DNA of 64,000 bases, from contig NZ_SSXU01000004.1 of NCBI RefSeq assembly GCF_009469605.1, positions 62,001 to 126,000 on the forward strand, given 5' to 3'. Source of the DNA: Zoogloea sp. 1C4 (GTDB lineage Bacteria > Pseudomonadota > Gammaproteobacteria > Burkholderiales > Rhodocyclaceae). The notes beneath the pieces were generated by a model. It was not told the origin of the DNA, searched no databases, and saw nothing but the letters and a program-made list of their open reading frames with translations. Below are positions 18,304 through 34,535 of the stretch, in pieces; within the stretch, counting starts at the first letter, position 1; each line of letters starts with the position of its first letter. Position numbers and translations under genes: made by a program.

Positions 18304-19416
18304 TTACTGCACCGGCTCCCACTTGCCGCCCTTGAACTGATAGACGGTGACGGCGCCGTCCTTGATGTCGCCCTTGGCGTCGAAAGCGACGGTGCCGATC
18401 ACGCCGGGGAAGTTGACCTTGCCGATGGCCGGAGCGTATTTGGCCGGGTCGGACGAGTTGGCGGCCTTCATGGCCTCGATGATCGCCGAGGCGGCGTCGT
18501 AGGCGTAGGGCGCGTAGATCTGCACGTCGGCGTTGAAGCGCTTCTTGAAGCGGGCGTTGAAATCCTTGCCGCCCGGCATCTTGTCCAGCGGCAGGCCCGG
18601 CTGGGTGCAATAGGCGTTGGGGCCGATCGCGTCGCCGGCCAGCTTGATGATCTCGCCGGTACAGCCGCCGTCGCCGGTGATGAACTTGGCGCCAATGCCC
18701 AGTTGCTTGATCTGCTTGAGCATCGGGCCGCCCTGGGTGTCCATGCCGCTGTAGACGATCACGTCCGGCGTCTTGCCCTTGATGCGGGTGAGGATGGCGA
18801 GGAAGTCGGTGGCCTTGTCGCTGGTGAATTCGCGGGTCACCACGGTGCCGCCGCTGGCCTTGACGGCCTTCTCGACCTCGTCGGCGAGGCCCTGGCCGTA
18901 GGCGGTGCGGTCGTCGATGATGGCGACCTTCTTGCCCAGGGTGGTGGCCGCGTACTTGCCGATGCCCAGGCCCTGCTGCACGTCGTTGGCGATGGTGCGG
19001 AAGGTGGACTTGAAGTTCTGCTGGGTGAGCCGGGGGTTGGTGGAGGCCGGCGAGACCTGCGGGACGCCGCCTTCGTTGTAGATGCGCGAGGCGGGGATGG
19101 AGGCGCCGGAGTTGAGGTGGCCGACCACGCCCTTCACGCCCGCATCCACCAGACGCTGGGCCACGGTGGTGGCGGTCTTCGGGTCGGCCGCGTCGTCTTC
19201 GGCCATCACTTCGAACTTCACCTTCTTGCCGCCCAGGGTCACGCCCTTGGCGTTGTATTCCTCGACGGCGAGGCGCACGCCGTTCTCGATGTCCTTGCCC
19301 AGGTGCGACTGGGTGCCGGTGAGCGGCGCGGCGGTGCCGAGCTTGACGACTTCCTGGGCCTGCACGGCGGATGCACCAAGACCGAGCACGGCAAGGGCGA
19401 CAAGGGTGATTTTCAT
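18304..19416 (-). CDS. livK: branched-chain amino-acid ABC transporter substrate-binding protein (copy 1)
   Basis: A 370-residue periplasmic binding protein of the Peripla_BP_6 (Leu/Ile/Val) family. The start is ATG 19416, supported by AGAGGAG and the signal peptide MKITLVALAVLGLGASAVQAQE. Family motifs are KLGTAAPLTGTQSHLGKDIENGVRLAVEEYNAKG, GVVGHLNSGASIPASRIYNEGGVPQVSPAST, and AIIDDRTAYGQGLADEVEKAVKASGGTVV. It captures the amino acid in the periplasm and delivers it to LivHM. It is related to the neighbouring copy 2. Confidence 0.93.
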   Translation of the reverse strand: MKITLVALAVLGLGASAVQAQEVVKLGTAAPLTGTQSHLGKDIENGVRLAVEEYNAKGVTLGGKKVKFEVMAEDDAADPKTATTVAQRLVDAGVKGVVGHLNSGASIPASRIYNEGGVPQVSPASTNPRLTQQNFKSTFRTIANDVQQGLGIGKYAATTLGKKVAIIDDRTAYGQGLADEVEKAVKASGGTVVTREFTSDKATDFLAILTRIKGKTPDVIVYSGMDTQGGPMLKQIKQLGIGAKFITGDGGCTGEIIKLAGDAIGPNAYCTQPGLPLDKMPGGKDFNARFKKRFNADVQIYAPYAYDAASAIIEAMKAANSSDPAKYAPAIGKVNFPGVIGTVAFDAKGDIKDGAVTVYQFKGGKWEPVQ

Positions 19417-19509
19417 GCGGTTTTCTCCTCTGGAGGGTTCAGGCAAGGCGTTTCAAGCAAATTTGGCGCCACGCGCGCGGCGCCGTGTCGATCGTTTCGG
19501 CACCGGACG

Positions 19510-20634
19510 TCAGGGCCGGACTTCCCACTTGCCGGCATTGAACTGGTAGAGCGCCACGCCGCCTTCACGCACGTCGCCGTTGGCGTCGAAGGCGATGTTG
19601 CCGGTGACGCCCTTGAAGGCCACCTTCTGCATCAGCGGCAGGTATTTGGCGGGCTCGGCCGAGTTGGCGAGCTTCATGGCCTCGATGAGGGCGCTGGCGG
19701 CGTCGTAGCTGTAGGGCGCATAGAGCTGCACCGGCACGTTGAAGCGCTTGGTGAAGCGCTCGTTGAAGGCCTTGCCGGCGGGCATCTTGTCCATCGGGAT
19801 GCCGGCCTGGGTGCAATACACGTCGGGGCTCATCGCCGCGCCGGCGATCTTGATCATCTCGGCGGTGCACGCCCCGTCGCCGCCCAGATACTTGGCGGTG
19901 ATGCCCAGCTGCTTCATCTGCTTGAGGAGCGGCGCGCCCTGGGCGTCCATGCCGCCGTAGAAGATGGCGTCGGGCTTGGCGGCCTTGAGCTTGGTGAGGA
20001 TGGCCGCGAAGTCGGTGGCCTTGTCGTTGGTGAATTCACGCCCCACCGGCTTCACGCCGCGCTGCTTGAGGCTGTCCACCAGCGCGTCGGCGAGGCCCTG
20101 GCCGTAGGCGGTGCGGTCGTCGATCACCGCGATGCGCTCGGCCTTCAGCACATCAACGGCAAAGCGGGCCATCGCGTTGCCCTGCTGGAGATCGTTGGCG
20201 ATGACCCGGTAGGTGGTCTTGAAGCCCTGGCGGGTCAGCTTGGGGGTGGTGGACGATGGCGTCACCGACGGCACGCCGCCCTGTTCGTAGATGCGCGAGG
20301 CGGGGATTGCGGCGCCGGAGGTCACGTGGCCGACCACACCCTTCACGCCGGCATCCACCAGACGCTGGGCGACGGTGGTGGCGGTGCGCGGATCGGCCTG
20401 GTCGTCCTCGGCCATCAGCTCGAACCGGGCTTTCTGGCCGCCGAGGGTCACCCCCTTCGCGTTGGCATCCTCCAGCGCCAGCTGGGCGCCGAACTGCTCG
20501 TCCTTGCCCACATGGGAAATGGGGCCGGTGAGGGGGCCGGCAAAACCGATCTTCACCACCACGTCGGCGAGCGCCGCGGTGCTCGCGACCATCGTCACGC
20601 CGGCCACGGCCAGCATCGTCACGGAGCGTTTCAC
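19510..20634 (-). CDS. branched-chain amino-acid ABC transporter substrate-binding protein (copy 2)
   Basis: A 374-residue paralogue of the next binding protein. I choose GTG 20634 (VKRSVTMLAVAGVTMVASTAALA) because a GGAGG ribosome site lies 8 bases upstream; the longer in-frame GTG at 20649 would place that site inside the gene. The same motifs occur, for example VGHVTSGAAIPASRIYEQGGVPSVTP and AVIDDRTAYGQGLADALVDSL. Two binding proteins for one permease set usually widen the substrate range. It is divergent from the BamE-like lipoprotein gene. Confidence 0.92.
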   Translation of the reverse strand: MKRSVTMLAVAGVTMVASTAALADVVVKIGFAGPLTGPISHVGKDEQFGAQLALEDANAKGVTLGGQKARFELMAEDDQADPRTATTVAQRLVDAGVKGVVGHVTSGAAIPASRIYEQGGVPSVTPSSTTPKLTRQGFKTTYRVIANDLQQGNAMARFAVDVLKAERIAVIDDRTAYGQGLADALVDSLKQRGVKPVGREFTNDKATDFAAILTKLKAAKPDAIFYGGMDAQGAPLLKQMKQLGITAKYLGGDGACTAEMIKIAGAAMSPDVYCTQAGIPMDKMPAGKAFNERFTKRFNVPVQLYAPYSYDAASALIEAMKLANSAEPAKYLPLMQKVAFKGVTGNIAFDANGDVREGGVALYQFNAGKWEVRP

Positions 20635-20740
20635 CTGTTCATCCTCCACAAAGGGTGTTCATGCCAGAATGGGCTGATTGTAACCAAGCCCGGCCATTTT
20701 GGCGGGTTGCCGCCACCTCGATACCGCTGGAGACCCTCCG

Positions 20741-21456: not shown

Positions 21457-22977
<1,521 letters not shown>

Positions 22978-23017
22978 TGTGTTTGTGTCGTCCCTGTTGT
23001 AAGTAAGGCAAGGTGTT

Positions 23018-23049
23018 GCGGGGCGGGAGGAATCCCGTCCCGCTTTTTT
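23018..23049 (+). terminator. intrinsic terminator between exaC and the DUF779 gene
   Basis: An 11-bp GC stem (23018-23028 with 23033-23043, one G-U pair), a GGAA loop and six T residues. It ends only about 14 bases before the DUF779 start codon, so it probably limits how much of the exaC message includes DUF779. Confidence 0.85.
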
Positions 23050-23063
23050 CTTGGAGGAGCCCC

Positions 23064-23432
23064 ATGACACCGAGAATCATTGCCACCGACGCCGCCCTCG
23101 CCTTCATCAACGAGCTGCGCGGCGAGTTCGGCCCCCTGATGTTCGTGCTCTCCGGCGGCTGCTGCGACGGCAGCGTGCCCAACTGCTACAAGCTCGGCGA
23201 GGTCATCCCCGGCCAGACCATGCTCCTGCTCGGCGAAGTGGGCGGCGCCCCCTTCTACCTGGGCCACCAGGAGTTCGCCTACTACGGTTCGTCCCAGCTC
23301 ACCCTCGACGTGCAGCCCGGCGGCGGCGGGGATTTCTCCCTCGACTGCGGCAAGGGGCGTGCCTTCGTCACCCGCTCGCGGCTGTTCAGCGACGAGGAGC
23401 TTGCCGCCGCGGCACCGGTTTCGGGCGGATAA
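23064..23432 (+). CDS. DUF779 protein, partner of acetaldehyde dehydrogenase
   Basis: A 122-residue soluble protein starting with ATG 23064 after TTGGAGGAG. It has the DUF779 core LMFVLSGGCCDGSVPNCYKLGE and the C-terminal DFSLDCGKGRAFVTRSRLFSDEE. The conserved Cys residues (GGCCDG, PNCYK) suggest metal or redox chemistry. DUF779 genes are very often next to exaC-type aldehyde dehydrogenases, but their role is not known to me. Expression may depend on read-through of the terminator just upstream. Confidence 0.88.
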   Translation: MTPRIIATDAALAFINELRGEFGPLMFVLSGGCCDGSVPNCYKLGEVIPGQTMLLLGEVGGAPFYLGHQEFAYYGSSQLTLDVQPGGGGDFSLDCGKGRAFVTRSRLFSDEELAAAAPVSGG

Positions 23433-23608: not shown

Positions 23609-24550
23609 ATGGCAACCCTTCTCTGGCTTCAGACTGGCGCCTGCAGTGGCGACACCATGTCGCTCCTGAACGCCGACAGCCCATCGGTCGAGAGCCTTGT
23701 CCGTGGCGGCAGCCTCGACATCCTGTGGCACCCGTCCCTCAGCGCCAAGCCGGCCGGCGCCCTGGGCGAGCTGATCGCCGCCATCGAGGCCGGCACCCAG
23801 CCCCTCGACATCCTGTGCGTCGAAGGCAGCATGATCACCGGCCCCTACGGCACCGGCATGTTCGACAGCTACCGGGGTCGCGCCAAGATCGACATCACCC
23901 GCGCGCTGGCCGCGCGGGCGCGCCACGTGGTGGCGGTGGGAACCTGCTCGGCCTTCGGCGGCATCCCCGCCGCGCCGCCCAACCCCACCGACTGCACCGG
24001 CCTGCAGTTCGACCGCGAACAGCCCGGCGGAATGCTCCCGCCCGAATGGCGATCTGCGTCGGGCAACCCGGTCATCAACCTGGCCGGCTGCCCGGTGCAT
24101 CCCAACACCATCACCCGCAGCCTCGCACTGCTGGCCCAGGACCAGCCCCTCGAGCTGGATTTCCTCAACCGCCCGCGCGCCTTTTTCAACAGCACGGTGC
24201 ACCAGGGCTGCACCCGCAACGAATACCACGAGTACGACATCGAGGAAAAAGACTTCGGCGGCCGCGGCTGCCTGTTCTTCAACCTCGGCTGCCAGGGCCC
24301 CAACACCCTCGCCAACTGCAACAGTGATCTATGGAACCGGCGCAGCAGCAAGACCCGCGCCGGCGTGCCCTGCTTCGGCTGCACCTCACCGGGCTTCCCG
24401 CGGGATGGCGACCTGTTCCGCACCGAAAAGATCGGCGCCGTGCCGGTGGCCCTGCCCCTGGGCGTCTCCCGCGCCCACTACATGGCCTACAAGAACCTCG
24501 CCCACGCCGCTGCGCCGCTGCGCATCAAGAACCGGGACATGGAGACCTGA
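23609..24550 (+). CDS. cytosolic group-2-type [NiFe] hydrogenase small subunit
   Basis: A 313-residue iron-sulfur subunit. It starts MATLLWLQTGACSGDTMSLLNAD with no twin-arginine signal, so the enzyme should stay in the cytosol, as in group 2 (HupSL, HupUV). The proximal-cluster motif is Cys12-x2-Asp15 instead of the usual Cys-x2-Cys. Other cluster ligands appear in VAVGTCSAFGG, NLAGCPVHPNT, HQGCTRNEYHEYD, GRGCLFFNLGCQGPNT and GVPCFGCTSPGFP. It passes electrons from the NiFe site outward. Its downstream partners are the large subunit, a protease and the Rieske kinase, so a sensory role is likely. Confidence 0.9.
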   Translation: MATLLWLQTGACSGDTMSLLNADSPSVESLVRGGSLDILWHPSLSAKPAGALGELIAAIEAGTQPLDILCVEGSMITGPYGTGMFDSYRGRAKIDITRALAARARHVVAVGTCSAFGGIPAAPPNPTDCTGLQFDREQPGGMLPPEWRSASGNPVINLAGCPVHPNTITRSLALLAQDQPLELDFLNRPRAFFNSTVHQGCTRNEYHEYDIEEKDFGGRGCLFFNLGCQGPNTLANCNSDLWNRRSSKTRAGVPCFGCTSPGFPRDGDLFRTEKIGAVPVALPLGVSRAHYMAYKNLAHAAAPLRIKNRDMET

Positions 24551-24557
24551 CCCCACC

Positions 24558-26093
24558 ATGGCCCGCACCACCCTCAACGTCGATCTCAACCGCGTCGAAG
24601 GCGACCTGGAGTTCCAGGTGGACCTGGACGGCAACCGCATCGTCGACGCCCGCTGCGTCGGCACCCTGTTCCGCGGCTTCGAGCAGCTCCTGATCGGCCG
24701 CGCGCCCAAGGACGGCCTCGTCATCACCCCACGGGTGTGCGGCATCTGCGGCACGGCCCACCTGTACACCGCGGCCCTCGCGCTGGAGCGCCTCGCCCAG
24801 CTGCCCGTGCCGCCCCAGGCCACGCTGATCCGCAACCTGTGCCTGATGGCCGAGAACATCCAGAGCGACCTGCGCCAGAGCTTCCTGTTCTTCACGCCGG
24901 ATTTCATCCACCCCCGCTACGCCGGCCAGCGCCTCTACCCGGACATCGAAGCCGCCTTCGCGCCCCTCAAGGGCAAGGTGGTGCGCTCCACCCTGGCGGT
25001 GTCCCGCAAGGTGGTCGAGCTGGTGGCGATCTTCGGCGGCCAGTGGCCCCACTCGTCGTACATGCTGCCGGGCGGCGTCACCCGCGGCGCCTCCGCCCGC
25101 GACCTGATCGACTGCCAGGACATCGTCGATCAGGCCATCGAGTGGTACGAGCAGGACGCCATCGGCGACAGCCTCGACAACTGGCTGGCCCTCGACAGCA
25201 GCGACGCCTTCTTCAGCTGGCTCGAAGCCGACGCCCACGCCGCCAGCGCCATCGGCCTCCTCACCCGCTTCGCCCGCGCCATCGGCCTGCAGAAGATCGG
25301 CGGCGGCGCCCGCCACTTCCTGTCGGCTGGCGCCTGGCACGACCCGCAGCGCTGGGCCCCGCCCTACACCGACGGCGCCACCCTGATGCCCGCCGGCATC
25401 TACCACGCCGACGGGGCCCGCCTCGAAGCCTTCGACCAGGCCCTCGTCAACGAGCACGTCCGCCACGCCTGGTATCGCCCCTACCCCGGCGGCCGCCACC
25501 CCTTTGCCGGCGAGACGGTGCCCGACTACCAGCCCGACACCGACCGTTACACCTGGGCCAAGGCCCCGCGTTACGGCGATCTGGTCGTCGAGACCGGTCC
25601 GCTGGCCGAGCTCCTCGCCGGCGGCGACGCCCTGGTGGCCAGCCTGCTCGCCCTCGAAGGCCCCAACACCTGGCTGCGCCAGTTCGCCCGCCTGCGCCGC
25701 ACCGCCCACACCCTGCACTGGATGAAGCACCATCTGGCCGAGCTTGCCGGCCTGATCGGCACGCCCCACTACCTGCCGCCCCCCGCCGACGCCTTCCAGC
25801 ATGGCGAAGGCTACGGCTTCGTGCAGGCCGCCCGCGGCACCCTCGGCCACTGGCTGCAGATCGAAGACGGCCGCATCAGCCGCTACCAGATCGTCACCCC
25901 CACCGCCTGGAACGCCTCGCCGAAAGACAGCACCGGCCGCCACGGGCACTGGGAGGAGAGCGTGATCGGCGTCGAGCTGGCCGACCCGGCCGACCCGATC
26001 GAGATCGGCCACATCGTCCGCTCCCACGACCCGTGCCTGGTGTGCACGGTGCATTTCGTCGGCAGCGGGGAGCGCCATCGCTATGGCGTCTGA
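24558..26093 (+). CDS. cytosolic group-2-type [NiFe] hydrogenase large subunit
   Basis: A 511-residue catalytic subunit that splits or makes H2 at a NiFe(CN)2CO centre. Both active-site motifs are complete: L1 RVCGICGTAH (Cys61, Cys64, His68) and L2 HDPCLVCTVH (Cys493, Cys496, His499). After His499 there are 12 more residues (FVGSGERHRYGV), the extension that a maturation endopeptidase removes after nickel insertion. Canonical sensory HupV/HoxC lacks this tail, so this is a group 2 enzyme other than the classical HupUV. It begins 7 bp after the small-subunit stop. Confidence 0.93.
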   Translation: MARTTLNVDLNRVEGDLEFQVDLDGNRIVDARCVGTLFRGFEQLLIGRAPKDGLVITPRVCGICGTAHLYTAALALERLAQLPVPPQATLIRNLCLMAENIQSDLRQSFLFFTPDFIHPRYAGQRLYPDIEAAFAPLKGKVVRSTLAVSRKVVELVAIFGGQWPHSSYMLPGGVTRGASARDLIDCQDIVDQAIEWYEQDAIGDSLDNWLALDSSDAFFSWLEADAHAASAIGLLTRFARAIGLQKIGGGARHFLSAGAWHDPQRWAPPYTDGATLMPAGIYHADGARLEAFDQALVNEHVRHAWYRPYPGGRHPFAGETVPDYQPDTDRYTWAKAPRYGDLVVETGPLAELLAGGDALVASLLALEGPNTWLRQFARLRRTAHTLHWMKHHLAELAGLIGTPHYLPPPADAFQHGEGYGFVQAARGTLGHWLQIEDGRISRYQIVTPTAWNASPKDSTGRHGHWEESVIGVELADPADPIEIGHIVRSHDPCLVCTVHFVGSGERHRYGV

Positions 26094-26583
26094 CCTCCCC
26101 CGAGAGGGACGGGGCCTTGCGCCCCGCTCCATTCACGTCATCTGCTTCGGCAACGAGCTGCACGGCGACGACGGCTTCGGCCCCGCGGTGCACGCCCGCC
26201 TCGCCGCCTGGCCGCTCCCGGCCGGGGTGCGCCTGATGCGCGCCGACCTGGCCGGGCTGGCCGCCATCGGGTGCTTTGAGGGCTGCGCCGAAGCCATCAT
26301 CGTCGACGCCGTCGCCGGCTTCGGCCCGCCGGGCTCGCTGCACGAACTCGACGCCGAAGGCTTCGCCGACGCCGCCGCCCGCGACGAAGCCCCGGCCGGC
26401 TTCCACGGCGCCGGGGTTGGCGGGCTGCTCCGGCTGCTGCCCGCCGCCCTCGACCACCTGCCGGCGATCCGTCTGGTGGGCGCCGAGGCCGGCCACATCG
26501 CGGCCTTCTCGCCGGGGCTGTCGGCCCCCGTGGCCGACGCGGTGGACGCCGCCGCCACCCGCATCCGGGCGCTGTGGTCATGA
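26083..26583 (+). CDS. hydrogenase maturation endopeptidase (HupD/HycI family)
   Basis: A 166-residue protease that clips the C-terminal tail of the large subunit after nickel loading. The three nickel-sensing residues of the family are visible: Glu in CFGNELHGDDGFG, Asp in AIIVDAVAGFG and His in AGFHGAGVGGLL. The gene overlaps the end of the large-subunit gene by 11 bp and its own stop overlaps the next start (ATGA), so it is translationally coupled to both. This supports specificity for the adjacent hydrogenase, which carries a matching tail. Confidence 0.9.
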   Translation: MASDLPREGRGLAPRSIHVICFGNELHGDDGFGPAVHARLAAWPLPAGVRLMRADLAGLAAIGCFEGCAEAIIVDAVAGFGPPGSLHELDAEGFADAAARDEAPAGFHGAGVGGLLRLLPAALDHLPAIRLVGAEAGHIAAFSPGLSAPVADAVDAAATRIRALWS

Positions 26584-28655
26584 CCCACACCGACGCCATC
26601 CCGATCCGCAACCTGCGCGAGGTCGTCGGCCGGCCGGACCGCCTGTGCGGCGTCGTCGCCCTGCCCGGGCACAACGCGCCGCTGCACATCCTGGTCGTCC
26701 AGCGCAACGATGGCTGGGTGGCGCTGCCCGCCGCCTGCCCCCACGAAGGCCACCGCCTCGACCACAGCCCCGAAGACAGCGACGGCCGCCTGATCTGCCC
26801 GGCCCACGGCCTGCAGATCGAGACCGCCGACGAGAACGCCATCCTCCAGGTGCGTCAGGTGGGCGACGACTTCTGCATCGTGACGACCGACAGCAGCGCC
26901 ATCACGCACCCCACCCGGGGCGAGGTCGCCCGCCTGCGCATGGAGGTCGAAGCCCTCCGCCAGGCCAACGCCACCCTCGAACAGCAGATCACGGCCGTCA
27001 CCGGCATGATGGACACCATGGTGGACGAGGTCAGCGCCAAGTCCCGCCTGCTCGAACAGCAGAGCGCCGAGCAGGTGCGCCTGAGCAGCTTCATCACCAA
27101 CGTGATGGACACCATGGACAGTCTGCTGCTGGTAATCGACCGCTTCGGGCTCATCAGCCGCGCCAACGCCGCCGTCCGCCGCAGCCTGGGCATCAACCCG
27201 ACCAAGCTCATCGGCGTCTCGCCCGACACCCTGCTCGCCGACGAGACCCTGGCCGGGCTGCGCGCAGCGTCCCCCAGCTTCGGCCCCGGCACGGTACTGT
27301 TCCGCACCATCCTGCAGCAGGGCAGCGTCGAGATGGAGACCTGCCTCGAGAGCCGGCTGCCCGGCATGGGCACGCGCCACTACATCCTGCGTGCCGCGCC
27401 CCTCCACGACCGCAGTGGCAAGCTCGAAGGCGTGGTCATCGTCGGTTCCGACATCACCACCCTGCGCCTGCGCGAGCAGGCCCTGAAGGACAGCGAGCAG
27501 CGCTTCCGCGACTACTCCGAAGTCTCATCCGACTGGTACTGGGAAACCGACGCCGACATGCGCTTCACCGGCTACATCGGCCGCGGCCCCGAGGGCCACA
27601 CCATGATCGATCTGGTGCGCGGCCGCCGGCGCGAGGAGTTCGCCGCTCCGGAAGATCTGGCCGACACCGAAAAGTGGGCCCGCTTCCACGCCGCGATCGC
27701 CGCCCGGCAGGAGTTCCGTGATTTCGAGTACCGCGTCCACCACCCGGTGAAGCTCATCAGCTGGCTGAGCCTGTCCGGCCTGCCGGTCATCTCGCCGGAA
27801 GGCGAGTTCCTGGGCTATCGGGGCACCTCCAAGGACATCTCGGCGCGCAAGGCCATCGAGGCCGAGCTGCGCAGCCACCGGGACCACCTCTCCGAACTGG
27901 TCGCTGCCCAGACGGCCGATCTCGTCTCCGCCAAGGAAGCCGCCGAGCGGGCCAGCCAGCTCAAGAGCGAGTTCCTGGCCAACATGTCCCACGAGTTCCG
28001 CACCCCGCTCCACGGCATCATGTCCTACGCGCGGCTGGGCGAAACCCGCACCGGCCAGGTGCCCAACGAGAAGCTCATCAACTATTTCCAGCGCATCCAC
28101 CAGAGCGGCTCGCGCCTCGCCGATCTGGTAAACGACCTCCTCGACCTGGCCAAGCTCGAAGCCCGCCGGATCAACTTTGCGCTGCACCCGGGCGACATTA
28201 CGGTGGTCGTCGATCGGGTCCATGCCGATCTGGCGGCGCTGTTCAAGCAGCACGGGCTCAATTTCGCCATCGACCGCCAGACCCGCAACACCGTCGCCCG
28301 CATCGACCCCCAGCAACTCCACCACGCGGTGCAGAACCTGCTCTCCAACGCCATCAAGTTCTCGCCGCCGGGCGGCACCATCACCGTCACCTACCGGGAT
28401 TGCATGCTCGGCAAGCGCGAGGCGGTCGCCTTCAGCGTGCGCGATCAGGGCGTCGGCATTCCGGTCGGCGAAGAGCAGCAGATCTTCGAGAAGTTCGTCC
28501 AGAGCAGCGCCACCAAGACCGGCGCCGGCGGCACCGGGCTCGGGCTGGCGATCACCAGCGAGATCGTCCGCGGCCACGAGGGCAGCATCAACGCCCGCAA
28601 CCACCCGGACGGCGGCGCGGTGTTCGAGATCCGCATCCCGCGCAGCGCCGAATAA
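26580..28655 (+). CDS. Rieske-domain PAS histidine kinase, probable H2/redox sensor
   Basis: A 691-residue soluble histidine kinase with no signal or membrane helix. An N-terminal Rieske [2Fe-2S] domain (residues about 5-105) has Cys53-x-His55 and Cys73-x2-His76 as ligands. Next come a coiled coil (about 115-165, [19 protein letters not shown]), two PAS domains (about 175-425), HisKA with His471 in [15 protein letters not shown], and HATPase_c ([24 protein letters not shown]). There is no receiver. Its ATG overlaps the protease stop. I infer that hydrogenase electrons reduce the Rieske cluster and set kinase activity. No cognate regulator gene is adjacent. Confidence 0.92.
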
Positions 28656-31153: not shown

Positions 31154-31792
31154 TCAGATCAGCCCGAGGCGCAGCGCCAGCCGGGTCAGCTCGATGTCGC
31201 TGCGCACGCCCAGCTTGCTCTTGATCTGGTAGTGGCAGTTCTGCACCGTCTTGGCCGAGATCGACAGGCGCGTGCCGATCTCCTCCGGCCCCAGCCCATC
31301 GAGCAAGAGGCGCAGGATCTCGAACTCCCGCGGGGCCAGCTCGGCGAGCGGCTCCCGCGGGCGGTCGATGAGGGCCAGGGCCAGCTCCGGCGCGATGTCC
31401 GGGCTGATCACCTGACGTCGCGCTGCCACCTGATACACCGCGTTCACCAGCACCTCGGGCGGGCTGCTCTTGGTCACGTAGCCCAGCGCGCCGGCCCGCA
31501 GGGCCTGGGTGGCGAAGAGCGGCTCCCGGTGCATCGAGAACACCAGGATGCGGGCGCCGGCGTCCCGCTGGAGCAGACGCCGGATCAGCTCGACCCCGCC
31601 CATGTCGGGCAGGCTCAGGTCGAGCACCACCACGTCGGGCCCGTGGATGCGGAAGCAGTCCATCGCCTCCCGGGCGGTGGCCGCCTCGGCCACGATGGCC
31701 AGATCGGGCCGGGTTTCCAGCAGGCGGCGGTAGCCCTCGCGCACCACCGCGTGGTCGTCCACCAGCAGCAGGCGGGTCTGTTCAAGCATCAT
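31154..31792 (-). CDS. NarL/FixJ-family response regulator
   Basis: A 212-residue two-component regulator. The receiver domain is MLEQTRLLLVDDHAVVREGYRRLLE with phospho-acceptor Asp in PDVVVLDLSLPDMGG and Lys in GYVTKSS. The C-terminal LuxR-type HTH is LAPREFEILRLLLDGLGPEEIGTRLSISAKTVQNCHYQIKSKLGV. Two neighbouring ATGs are possible (31792 or 31789). The gene overlaps the kinase gene upstream, so they form a pair. The DNA target may be the palindrome CGGGCAATTTGCCCG. Confidence 0.92.
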   Translation of the reverse strand: MMLEQTRLLLVDDHAVVREGYRRLLETRPDLAIVAEAATAREAMDCFRIHGPDVVVLDLSLPDMGGVELIRRLLQRDAGARILVFSMHREPLFATQALRAGALGYVTKSSPPEVLVNAVYQVAARRQVISPDIAPELALALIDRPREPLAELAPREFEILRLLLDGLGPEEIGTRLSISAKTVQNCHYQIKSKLGVRSDIELTRLALRLGLI

Positions 31793-33179
31793 CGTGCTCC
31801 GTGACCAGCAGCGCCTCGGGCGGAAAATCCGCCCGCACCCGCATGCCGCGGGGCGCCAGGGGTTCGAGGGCGAAGCGCCCGCCGAGGGCTTCGACGCGCT
31901 CGCGCATGCCCAGCACGCCCAGGCCGCTGCCCGGGCTGGGCGGGGCGTCGCCGTCGCCATCGTCCTCCACCCGCAGCCGGCAGCCGGCGCCGTCGCGCTC
32001 AAGGCTCACCGCCACCCGGCCGGGCGTGCCGTGGCGCAGGGCGTTGGTGAGGCTCTCCTGCACGATGCGGTACAGGCTCACGGTCAGATCAGCGGGCAGC
32101 GCGTCGATCTCGCCTTCCACCACCAGCGCAAAATCGCAGCCGGGCTGACGCCGCCGCCAGCCGGCCACCAGCTGATCCAGCGCGGCAGCGAGGCCGAACT
32201 CCTCCAGCCCCACCGGCCGCAGCTGGTGCAGGATGCCCTGCAGGCTCTCCATCATGTGGCCGGTCACCGCAGACACCGCCCGGGCCGCTGGCAGCAGCGT
32301 GGGGTCGGTCGATTCGGCCCGCGCGGCGATGAAGGCCGCCTCGGCCCCCACCGACGCCAGGCACTGGCCGAACTCGTCGTGCAGCTCGCGGGCCAGCCGG
32401 CGGCGCTCCTCCTCGCGCACCGCCAGCAGGCGCTGGGCCAGCTGGCGCTGGGCGGCGAGGGTCTTCTGGAGCTGCTCGGCCAGGTGGTCGAAGCCGGCGG
32501 CGATGCGGCGCAGCTCGATCAGCCGCGGGCGCGGCATCCGCGCCGACAGGTCGCCGGCCTCCATCCGCCCGAGCACCGCCAGGATCTGGTCCGCCGGCCG
32601 CAGCGCGCGGCGCACCGGGCGGTAGATCAGCAGGTTGAGGAGCAGGATCGCCAGGCTCATGCCCAGCACGGTGCGGATCTGCACCCACGCGGCGTGGCCC
32701 TCGCTGTCCAGATCCGGCGTGACGACGAACTCGCCCACCTTGACGCCCGGGTACTGGCCGATCACCCCGCGATAGGCGAGCTCCGGGCCAATCAAGCGCT
32801 CCAGCAGCCAGCGCACCGGGGCCGGCGCCGCGCCGTCTTCGTGGAAGCAGCGATTCACCACCGGACGTTTGTAAAGGTCTTCCACCGCCACGCAGATGCC
32901 CAGCAGCGGGCCGATGCCATCCAGCGTCGAGAGGGTCAGGCCGTCCAGGCTGCGCCGGAAGGCGTCACGCAGCTGGTCGGCCTCGCCGGCGATCAGCCGC
33001 TCGACGGTGACGCCGGAGCGGGAGATATGGCCCCGGATGCGCTCCCGCGTCTGGTGGAGCACCACCACCGTGGCCAGCACGCCGATGGCCAGCGCAAAGA
33101 GGCTCACCCGCAGGAGCAGGTGGTGCTTGAGATCCACCGCGGCCGGGGCGGCGGGCGGTGCGGGCGGGCGATCAGTCAT
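31782..33179 (-). CDS. NarX/UhpB-type sensor histidine kinase
   Basis: A 465-residue membrane kinase starting with ATG 33179. Two transmembrane helices (HLLLRVSLFALAIGVLATVVVL and VLGMSLAILLLNLLIY) frame a periplasmic sensing part of about 140 residues with GICVAVEDLYKRPVVNRCFHEDG. A HAMP-like region, a HisKA_3 domain with the phospho-His in RRRLARELHDEFGQCLASVG, and an HATPase follow. It pairs with the downstream NarL-type regulator. The ligand is unknown. An identical 15-bp palindrome lies just upstream. Confidence 0.92.
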   Translation of the reverse strand: MTDRPPAPPAAPAAVDLKHHLLLRVSLFALAIGVLATVVVLHQTRERIRGHISRSGVTVERLIAGEADQLRDAFRRSLDGLTLSTLDGIGPLLGICVAVEDLYKRPVVNRCFHEDGAAPAPVRWLLERLIGPELAYRGVIGQYPGVKVGEFVVTPDLDSEGHAAWVQIRTVLGMSLAILLLNLLIYRPVRRALRPADQILAVLGRMEAGDLSARMPRPRLIELRRIAAGFDHLAEQLQKTLAAQRQLAQRLLAVREEERRRLARELHDEFGQCLASVGAEAAFIAARAESTDPTLLPAARAVSAVTGHMMESLQGILHQLRPVGLEEFGLAAALDQLVAGWRRRQPGCDFALVVEGEIDALPADLTVSLYRIVQESLTNALRHGTPGRVAVSLERDGAGCRLRVEDDGDGDAPPSPGSGLGVLGMRERVEALGGRFALEPLAPRGMRVRADFPPEALLVTEHDDA

Positions 33180-33259
33180 GCAGGCAGAAGGGGGATGAGG
33201 ACAAAGCCCCGCCACAGGCGGCAGGGCGCGGTGCGCCCCGCAGATTACCCCATCCTCGC

Positions 33260-33274
33260 CGGGCAATTTGCCCG
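33260..33274. promoter_or_regulatory. 15-bp palindrome, candidate operator (copy C)
   Basis: CGGGCAATTTGCCCG, identical to 30551-30565, lies 80 bp upstream of the NarX-type kinase start. Presence at both places suggests autoregulation by the response regulator of this pair. Confidence 0.65.
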
Positions 33275-33315
33275 CAGCGCCACGGCCGCGCGGAGCTGCC
33301 GTGGCGTGACTGCGC

Positions 33316-34338
33316 TCAGCGGCGGCGCAGCAGGCCGCCCACGCCCAGCGCGCCCAGCAGTAGCGCCAGGCTGCCGGGCTCCGGCGCCTCATGCACCGAG
33401 AAGGCGGTGGCGTCGGGGCTGGAGAAGTTGAGCGCAAACGGGTCGCCGTTGTACAGCGACACGCCGGCCAGATGGAAGGTGGCCTTGTCGTCGGCCAGAC
33501 ACAGCCAGCCGTTGTCGCGGTTGGTGCCAGGATCGCCGCAGCGCACGCCCACGGTGTAGGAGACGAAGGGATCGATGTTCAGCAGAAAGTCGTTGTCGAA
33601 AGTTTTCACCAGCTTGATGTCGGTGAAATCAAAGCTCCAGTCGCCCCGTGACGGCAGGAACAACCCGACTTCGAGCGGTGTGCCGTTTACATCGAAATAG
33701 ACATTTTCCGACACGACCGAGCCGTGCTTGCTGGTCGCCTTGAGCACCGCGGAAACCGCCAGCGGAGCGAATTTCAGGTTCTCCTGGATCTTCAGGTCCA
33801 CCCCGGCCTTCACGGTGCCGATGCCGATGTTGGCGCCCACGCCGGGCGAGGCAAAGGTCATCACGTCACTGGCGGAGGTGACCTGATCGAGGGCTGGCCC
33901 GGTAGCCAGCATGCCGCTGAGGGAATAATTGGCACAGATGATGCATACATCTCCGCCCAGAGCGTGGGCGATCACGTTGATGCGGGCCCCGATTGCAGAC
34001 GTGAGCGACTGCCCGGCCGTACCGCTGAAGGCAAAGGTGCCGCGCCACATCTCGCTGTCGCCACCCACCCAGTCCATGTACGAACCGCTGATGGTGCCGG
34101 CGTAGGCGCCGGAGATCGTGCCGGTGCTGGCCGACACCGCGTACGAGATGCCCAGCCCTTCCGAGCCGAACATGCGCGACGAACTGAAGCTCGCCGACGA
34201 ACCGCCGGGCCCCCAGAAGCTCTGGGTGGCCGCGTTGAAGAGGAGATTCTGGCTGTAGCTGACGACGGTGGCGTGGGCAGCCGGCGTGAAGGCAGCGCCG
34301 GCCAGCAGCGCGGCTGCCGTCCAGGATTTGAAAGACAT
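33316..34338 (-). CDS. PEP-CTERM exosortase substrate protein, 340 aa
   Basis: A secreted 340-residue protein with a signal peptide (MSFKSWTAAALLAGAAFTPAAHATV) and a classic C-terminal PEP-CTERM signal: EAPEPGSLALLLGALGVGGLLRRR, which is the final segment. The body is beta-rich with Gly/Ser/Thr, typical of extracellular polysaccharide-associated proteins. Two Cys are close together in GGDVCIICANYS, and two more in GVRCGDPGTNRDNGWLCLAD. Exosortase would remove the signal and release or anchor the protein. The start ATG 34338 follows GGGGGTC. Confidence 0.9.
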   Translation of the reverse strand: MSFKSWTAAALLAGAAFTPAAHATVVSYSQNLLFNAATQSFWGPGGSSASFSSSRMFGSEGLGISYAVSASTGTISGAYAGTISGSYMDWVGGDSEMWRGTFAFSGTAGQSLTSAIGARINVIAHALGGDVCIICANYSLSGMLATGPALDQVTSASDVMTFASPGVGANIGIGTVKAGVDLKIQENLKFAPLAVSAVLKATSKHGSVVSENVYFDVNGTPLEVGLFLPSRGDWSFDFTDIKLVKTFDNDFLLNIDPFVSYTVGVRCGDPGTNRDNGWLCLADDKATFHLAGVSLYNGDPFALNFSSPDATAFSVHEAPEPGSLALLLGALGVGGLLRRR

Positions 34339-34535
34339 GGTGAGACCCCCTGAAGCGTGTTGTTTTATCGACATGACAGGCCGCGACGCAAGCGCAGCCT
34401 GCGAAGCCCAGCCTATCCGACAAAAGGTTCCAGATCAGTTACACCCGGCTACCATCCGCCCCGGGCGGAACAAAGCCCCGGGCGCGCCAGTCCGACCCGC
34501 AGACTTCAAATAACAATCATTCCCCCAACACGATC

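Follow-up and report, generated by a model that had tools for sequence, protein, structure and literature searches.

A stretch of 64,000 nucleotides (nt) from Zoogloea sp. 1C4 (contig NZ_SSXU01000004.1, positions 62,001 to 126,000), called the window here, carries on its forward strand a four-gene operon (23609-28655) for a cytosolic [NiFe] hydrogenase, its maturation protease and a soluble histidine kinase that begins with a Rieske [2Fe-2S] domain. The genome (G000) is Zoogloea-type and 5.0 Mb in size. The hydrogenase small subunit (23609-24550; 313 amino acids, ATG start, beginning MATLLWLQ) matches the Pfam families PF01058 (Oxidored_q6) and PF14720 (NiFe_hyd_SSU_C), and no leader or signal peptide was seen in its 313 residues. 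The large subunit (24558-26093; 511 amino acids, ATG start) matches PF00374 (NiFeSe_Hases), and the GTG start at 24324 of a longer mechanical open reading frame (ORF) is unnecessary. It is followed by a HycI-type maturation protease (26083-26583; PF01750, 24.6 bits against a cut-off of 23; TIGR00072, 86.6 bits against 47.45), and by the kinase itself (26580-28655; 691 amino acids, ATG start), which has a Rieske-coil-PAS-PAS-HisKA-HATPase architecture. The subunit genes are 7 nt apart, the large subunit overlaps the protease by 11 nt, and the protease stop overlaps the kinase start by 4 nt (ATGA). A first-pass annotation, made from the letters alone, had described four tightly packed genes with overlapping or nearly adjoining frames and had assigned them these functions; both the spacing and the Pfam matches to each gene bear this out.

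The Rieske domain spans residues 1-105 of the kinase (26580-26894; PF00355, 27.4 bits, cut-off 20.3). Counted from the ATG at 26580, the ligands were correctly read earlier as Cys53-x-His55 and Cys73-x2-His76, and they are invariant in 13 aligned domains (alignment A4), which were chosen by that motif. The nearest solved chains are Rieske oxygenases and ferredoxins. A coiled coil and a first PAS domain (coil-PAS1; residues 108-302, 26901-27485) form an input module that profile matches show to be common to the kinase and its GGDEF-EAL relatives. Of the two PAS domains annotated initially, the first is called by Pfam (PAS_4/PAS); the second (27486-27854) is PAS-like, uncalled in the window protein, and placed by homology to the relatives L010 and L066, in each of which Pfam calls two PAS stretches. 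HisKA (27963-28163; PF00512, 68.5 bits) with the phospho-acceptor His471 and HATPase_c (28305-28643; PF02518, 100.1 bits) follow, and the protein ends without a receiver domain. Both catalytic domains exceed their cut-offs, and H-box, N-box and G-boxes are in place: S470-H471-E472, N586, N590, D622-x-G624-x-G626 and the GLGLA stretch are invariant in an alignment of ten kinases (A3).

The hydrogenase belongs to group 2 of the [NiFe] enzymes, as indicated by the L1 and L4 cysteines of the large subunit (RVCGIC and DPCLVC, both intact) and the small-subunit ligands for three Fe-S clusters (C12, C113, C161, H198, C201, C221, C228, C237, C255, C258). The proximal-cluster motif Cys12-Ser-Gly-Asp15 (23642-23653) has an acid, Asp15, instead of a fourth cysteine. 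The form C-x-G-[DE] is found in all rows shown of two related clades, X and Y; six rows of group 2a have C-x-G-N, and the 12 group 2b rows that include the start of the protein have C-G-G-C. The large subunit continues for 12 residues after CTVH (26055-26090), a tail which is presumably cleaved off by the maturation protease; 5-17 residues follow that histidine in X and Y, and none in 17 2b rows. Two further small-subunit cysteines vary between groups: Cys70 occurs in all 20 clade-X rows and in 10 2b rows and in no 2a or clade-Y row, and Cys129 in 16 of the 20 clade-X rows.

Two trees place the enzyme in clade X (support 99 and 100/100), with clade Y (99 and 100/99) as its sister. The first was a quick large-subunit tree of 67 rows with a group 1 root, from which 10 of 77 rows were omitted (L024, L029 and L012 as partial or frame-split; L077, L066 and L102 as duplicates; L048, L051, L053 and L054 from the 2b side). 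The second was a careful two-subunit tree of 47 rows picked to span the groups and rooted on 2b by choice. In both, X and Y together form one clade (96; 100/99), adjacent to 2a (100; 100/100) and apart from 2b (99; 100/100), with the 2a and 2b labels of unnamed rows assigned here through tail, motif and stop position. L012 and L029, which are in no tree, were assigned to clade X on the strength of 83% and 92% identity, and L143, also in no tree, to clade Y by a CGGD motif and 49% identity alone. In L012 and L029 the large subunit is split over two frames, either by an assembly error or because the gene has decayed. Seven named loci have large subunits 83-92% identical to that of the window; six carry a Zoogloea label and one, on a contig of a metagenome-assembled genome (L024), a Thiobacillus label.

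The earlier comparison of the hydrogenase with HupUV/HoxBC sensors (group 2b) does not hold for its placement, given the 12-residue tail, the CSGD proximal motif and the position outside the 2b clade. Membership in the 2a Huc enzymes was rejected as well. Huc provides the nearest solved relatives of the small subunit (7uur/7utd, 293 bits) and the large subunit (7uus/7utd), and large-subunit identity is 36-40% to four annotated 2a proteins and 38% to Cupriavidus necator HoxC. However, the window enzyme lies outside the 2a clade, has CSGD and not CxGN, and its Rieske domain is not a NifU-Rieske protein of the HucE kind. A Huc-like uptake enzyme is likewise not favoured, since a signalling gene occupies the place of other genes in Huc clusters.

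The window hydrogenase thus forms part of a separate clade that resembles the putative group 2c. As given in part of the HydDB publication, 2c is "diguanylate cyclase-linked (putative)" with an undetermined role (PMC5037454), and sections of two further papers apply the name to methanotroph hydrogenases (PMC4853749, PMC12810054). Like 2c, clades X and Y form their own group 2 branch, apart from 2a and 2b and near the former, and they include methanotroph members. A diguanylate cyclase/phosphodiesterase is encoded in the operon of L078, L031, L095, L103, L104 and L142 (in L023 it is cut by the contig end). The L2 motif SFDxCLVCTVH, which a passage of PMC4853749 gives for 2c, reads SHDPCLVCTVH in the window; this single change to H is shared by a Thiomargarita sequence called 2c, and 2a rows also fit the motif. 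Unlike 2c, the window operon has a histidine kinase in place of the cyclase, with GGDEF proteins in relatives of the same clade, and is therefore compared with 2c only, not filed under it. Neither the Rieske input domain nor a protease-kinase fusion appears in the portions of the 2c descriptions at hand (PMC5037454, PMC4853749).

In a family scan, large-subunit matches at E 6e-130 or better were found in 14 of 150 genomes, followed by a gap to E 4e-102 and worse. The clade proved rare when the scans were widened. Among the three or fewer best candidates scored per genome, it occurred in 7 of 398 genomes of a phylum scan and 7 of 399 of an order scan; all three counts include the window genome. 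The Methylocaldum family yielded 3 of 38 genomes and the SAR324 phylum 3 of 52, both including the genome of the lead locus. In three relatives an uptake hydrogenase resembling Hyd-1 adjoins the operon, divergently in L142 (clade X) and L069 (clade Y), and downstream on the same strand in L070 (clade Y), where its large subunit is split over two frames. The small subunits of these neighbours exceed the TIGR00391 cut-off, and the large subunits match PRK10170 best, below the equivalog cut-off. In the window genome itself, the group 1 hydrogenase and HupUV are encoded on a different contig (C20), not beside the operon.

With large-subunit similarity as the only basis for choosing relatives, all 51 evaluable distinct loci have a signalling protein after the position of the protease, be it a histidine kinase, a hybrid kinase, a GGDEF or a GGDEF-EAL protein. 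The number results from 52 loci, minus three repeats (L077, L066, L102) and two that end before the fourth gene (L011, L024), plus four further loci; in L026 and L023 the signalling gene is truncated by the end of the contig. The Pfam analysis covered 28 signalling ORFs (L066 repeats L025), one further kinase of L105 and one lone Rieske protein, and the remaining signalling ORFs were called by profile matches or motifs. The protease is otherwise constant, with the exception of L097, where none was found and about 230 nt separate the large subunit from the kinase frame. By comparison, the four annotated 2a loci have no annotated signalling gene after the protease, although some genes there are hypothetical. 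The link between signalling protein and hydrogenase thus recurs in other genomes, and with 51 of 51 relatives the pairing is not due to chance; it probably reflects H2 sensing.

Rieske domains are distributed unevenly over these operons. Fusions of Rieske and HisKA domains beside hydrogenase genes, first seen in the window, are present in eight clade-X loci, the window among them. Five loci encode a Rieske-GGDEF-EAL protein (L023, L031, L095, L103, L142), and in one SAR324 locus (L017) a separate Rieske gene stands between the protease and a hybrid kinase. The domain is therefore intact in 14 of the 35 evaluable clade-X loci, window included. Two more (L013, L065) retain a Rieske domain with lost ligands, so that all four ligands are kept in 14 of 16 carriers. 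The other clade-X loci have a kinase without Rieske (three: L007, L008, L012), a GGDEF-EAL protein without Rieske (two: L078, L104) or a protease-kinase fusion (14 Dechloromonas-type loci), in which the protease takes the position that Rieske has in Zoogloea. One locus, L032 (7301-10633), has the protease fused to a PAS-kinase with two receivers and an Hpt domain, as called by Pfam. Pfam scored Rieske over its cut-off in seven proteins (window, L031, L023, L095, L017, L010, L066) and missed L103 at E 0.001; that domain was assigned from its motif, from alignment A4 and from the profile made of A4, which has L103 itself as a row. L142, which was not among the rows of the A4 profile, scored 90.9 bits with it, and the two decayed domains scored 38-48 bits. 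The profile gave no Rieske match in any of the 17 clade-Y loci, nor in the 19 clade-X loci classed as Rieske-less. A Rieske-like motif in L099 proved to be an overlapping frame of the protease gene and was discarded.

The Rieske domains of the signalling proteins, whatever the output, form a single clade (15 rows, 100/98), apart from HucE and from other Rieske proteins of the same genome, in a comparison with a small outgroup sample (4 HucE and 8 same-genome proteins; L116 and L118, two of ten stretches, were dropped for want of a motif match). An origin from HucE was therefore rejected, also because the HucE checked carries NifU. In the 150-genome family scan, with at most the 31 best candidates per genome scored, full-length matches occurred in five genomes, all among the seven with a clade-X hydrogenase: four reached 131-143 bits and G060, with a decayed domain, 53 bits, whereas the best match elsewhere, a partial one, had 36.6 bits. 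Among the 12 or fewer best candidates scored per genome in the 398-genome phylum scan, three genomes exceeded 50 bits: that of the window, G163, which has a clade-X operon, and G312. On the G312 contig (L131, 386-3850), a lone Rieske relative precedes a RidA-like gene, a receiver protein (Pfam) and, by eye, an Hpt-like ORF.

Two of the Rieske-bearing loci, L095 and L017, branch early in clade X, at weak support (80/58); the domain was therefore probably present in the ancestor of the clade. On the two-subunit tree, three changes of Rieske presence and two changes of output type are needed within X. The domain was probably lost three times, once with the protease fused to the kinase instead, and decayed once. 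In three pairwise comparisons, the ratio of nonsynonymous to synonymous substitution rates (dN/dS) of the Rieske domain was 0.53 (against L029), 0.72 (L006) and 0.58 (L009), next to 0.26-0.63 for coil-PAS1 and 0.10-0.34 for the catalytic part. These values suggest that the Rieske domain is under selection, loosely, like coil-PAS1.

The more lasting companion of the hydrogenase is the input module. A coil-PAS1 profile built from ten kinases matched every one of the 37 clade-X signalling ORFs searched, at 91-333 bits. The 37 count three duplicates and the ten kinases of the profile; L142 was outside the set. The next matches were C. necator HoxJ (37.8 bits, profile positions 30-130) and HupT, here the kinase beside HupUV in the window genome (36.8 bits, positions 31-190), with other locus ORFs at 22.2 bits or less. 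When the whole window genome was scanned, the 29 matches at E 0.1 or better were led by the kinase itself (289.4 bits), HupT (45.7) and a partial third (34.2). Most clade-Y proteins were not found by this profile, and their input module is therefore either different or too diverged. Because coil-PAS1 is constant in clade X and nearest to HoxJ and HupT, a role in docking to the hydrogenase is suggested, and hydrogenase plus coil-PAS1 appears to be the lasting core across relatives. The Rieske-less Zoogloea kinase of L012, for example, is 72% identical to the window kinase in coil-PAS1, 64% in the second PAS and 75% in the catalytic part.

Operon, domains, ligands, conserved synteny, the shared input module and the single Rieske family across outputs are established; that H2 is the signal, that the proteins dock and that electrons pass to Rieske is inferred, as are the direction of the kinase response and its target. 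We propose that the operon would make a cytosolic H2 sensor, in which the hydrogenase oxidises H2 slowly and, by analogy with HoxBC-HoxJ, docks on coil-PAS1 of the kinase. In the window lineage, electrons from the distal small-subunit cluster would also reduce the N-terminal Rieske cluster. Redox and docking state, relayed to the HisKA dimer by the coil and PAS domains, would govern phosphate transfer to a response regulator from another locus. Relatives would use this front end to drive enzymes of cyclic di-guanosine monophosphate (c-di-GMP) turnover. We give this full model, docking and electron transfer combined, an even chance.

That the Rieske domain is an electron-fed switch, reduced directly by the hydrogenase so that electrons from H2 set the activity of the kinase or c-di-GMP enzyme, is a tentative reading, for which we judge the chances to be slightly less than even. 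The full model draws on the synteny in all 51 relatives, on one Rieske family serving kinase, GGDEF-EAL protein and separate gene, and on the confinement of that family to clade-X genomes in the family scan. The likeness of coil-PAS1 to HupT and HoxJ, the Fe-S relay ligands and NiFe cysteines, the dN/dS values and the three Hyd-1-like neighbours also speak for it. By analogy, the redox chemistry of HucE-type Rieske clusters, for which a section of PMC6883350 gives a potential above -150 mV, would suit the window domain. Several observations weigh on the other side. Of 35 clade-X loci just 14 keep the domain intact, and of the 17 clade-Y loci none does. The domain is missing in three lineages and decayed in one, in which hydrogenase, coil-PAS1 and kinase or cyclase are kept. 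Within the kinase, conservation is among the weakest in this domain and in coil-PAS1. The lone 110-residue relative in G312, a genome without clade-X hydrogenase, is a true exception to the confinement. Finally, no hydrogenase residues significantly track Rieske presence, with 7.75% (small subunit) and 29.75% (large subunit) of 400 random quartets being as extreme. Because the domain was lost or decayed while its partners stayed, it is not the sole coupling, and the earlier idea of the hydrogenase reducing the kinase through Rieske finds no support as a general rule. The domain would instead refine or replace coupling, without being essential to it.

The same losses fit an account in which H2 is sensed by docking and conformational change alone, with Rieske as a second input, a redox or O2 gate for the electron carriers of the cell that takes no electrons from the hydrogenase. 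Rieske oxygenases and ferredoxins, the types of the nearest solved domains, receive electrons from reductases, and coil-PAS1 is present in all the clade-X signalling ORFs searched. The confinement of the Rieske family to clade-X genomes, but for the one phylum-scan exception, and the separate Rieske gene within the L017 operon are less easily accommodated, and we consider this account possible but rather unlikely. It is improbable that Rieske carries no signal and, like the fused protease of the Dechloromonas-type loci, serves assembly or docking by recruiting the kinase to the maturing hydrogenase. The protease fused in its place in 14 loci would fit, and assembly or scaffold roles are also left open for HucE in part of PMC6883350; however, the four cluster ligands are kept in 14 of 16 carriers, which argues against a pure scaffold, as a scaffold needs no ligands. 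A kinase blind to H2, which responds to a different cue, regulates the hydrogenase or other genes and is in the operon only to be co-expressed, has a similarly small chance. Against it, outputs vary (histidine kinase, GGDEF, GGDEF-EAL) but the hydrogenase, the protease and the input module remain linked, and the module is nearest to HupT and HoxJ.

The proposed electron-fed Rieske sensor shares features with several known systems. Like HupUV-HupT and HoxBC-HoxJ, it combines a cytosolic group 2 hydrogenase and a soluble PAS kinase in one cluster; outside its own family, coil-PAS1 is most similar to the PAS region of these kinases. The interaction of HoxBC and HupUV with their kinases is presumed or believed, in the wording of excerpts from PMC6978683 and PMC12319191. 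Unlike the window operon, these systems have 2b large subunits without tail, a CGGC motif and a separate clade. HoxJ and HupT, the two proteins checked, have PAS and kinase domains and no Rieske, in agreement with the first-pass annotation. Like the window operon, Huc clusters contain a Rieske protein, and three of the four annotated 2a loci have the order small subunit, large subunit, protease. HucE was required for H2 consumption by Huc and is its proposed, unproven electron acceptor, according to part of PMC6883350. The one HucE checked differs in being a NifU-Rieske protein of another Rieske clade. Rieske ferredoxins of the T4moC/CarAc type have the same C-x-H and C-x2-H ligands and a weak profile match (22-28 bits). 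In contrast to them, the window domain is fused to a signalling protein, and no oxygenase gene lies beside the operon in the window.

Full-text literature searches gave no description of a Rieske-kinase or Rieske-cyclase beside a hydrogenase, although an earlier mention in the Greening 2016 classification is possible; the fusion operon is thus apparently undescribed. It builds an electron acceptor into the signalling protein, and the operon family looks like a modular bacterial route from hydrogen to signals. If the electron-fed reading is true, it would represent a modular, electron-wired class of one- and two-component signalling that exchanges its outputs and keeps the hydrogenase with its Rieske-coil-PAS front end. 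Matched variants exist in nature: Rieske may be present, have broken ligands, be absent or be encoded separately, and the output may be a kinase or a c-di-GMP enzyme. Electron transfer and docking can therefore be directly tested against each other in pairs of near relatives, for example the kinases of the window and L012.

In phmmer searches, neither the window operon nor the operons of the other Rieske-kinase loci covered gave a response regulator, in line with the initial remark that none is adjacent. The nearest one found (31154-31939, reverse strand) overlaps its own kinase gene. This kinase/regulator pair (31154-33437, reverse strand) is not favoured as the partner, being on the other strand and having its own kinase; its regulator is a neighbour of the operon in L006, L009 and L029 as well. 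Directly upstream of the operon, aldehyde dehydrogenase and DUF779 genes (21457-23432, forward strand) are found, as they are in L006, L009, L012, L024 and L029. Further upstream, two tandem genes for branched-chain amino-acid binding proteins (18304-20649, reverse strand) look by eye like a recent duplication. Downstream, the protein encoded at 33316-34374 (reverse strand) ends by eye in a C-terminal motif which we take to be a PEP-CTERM-like sorting signal.

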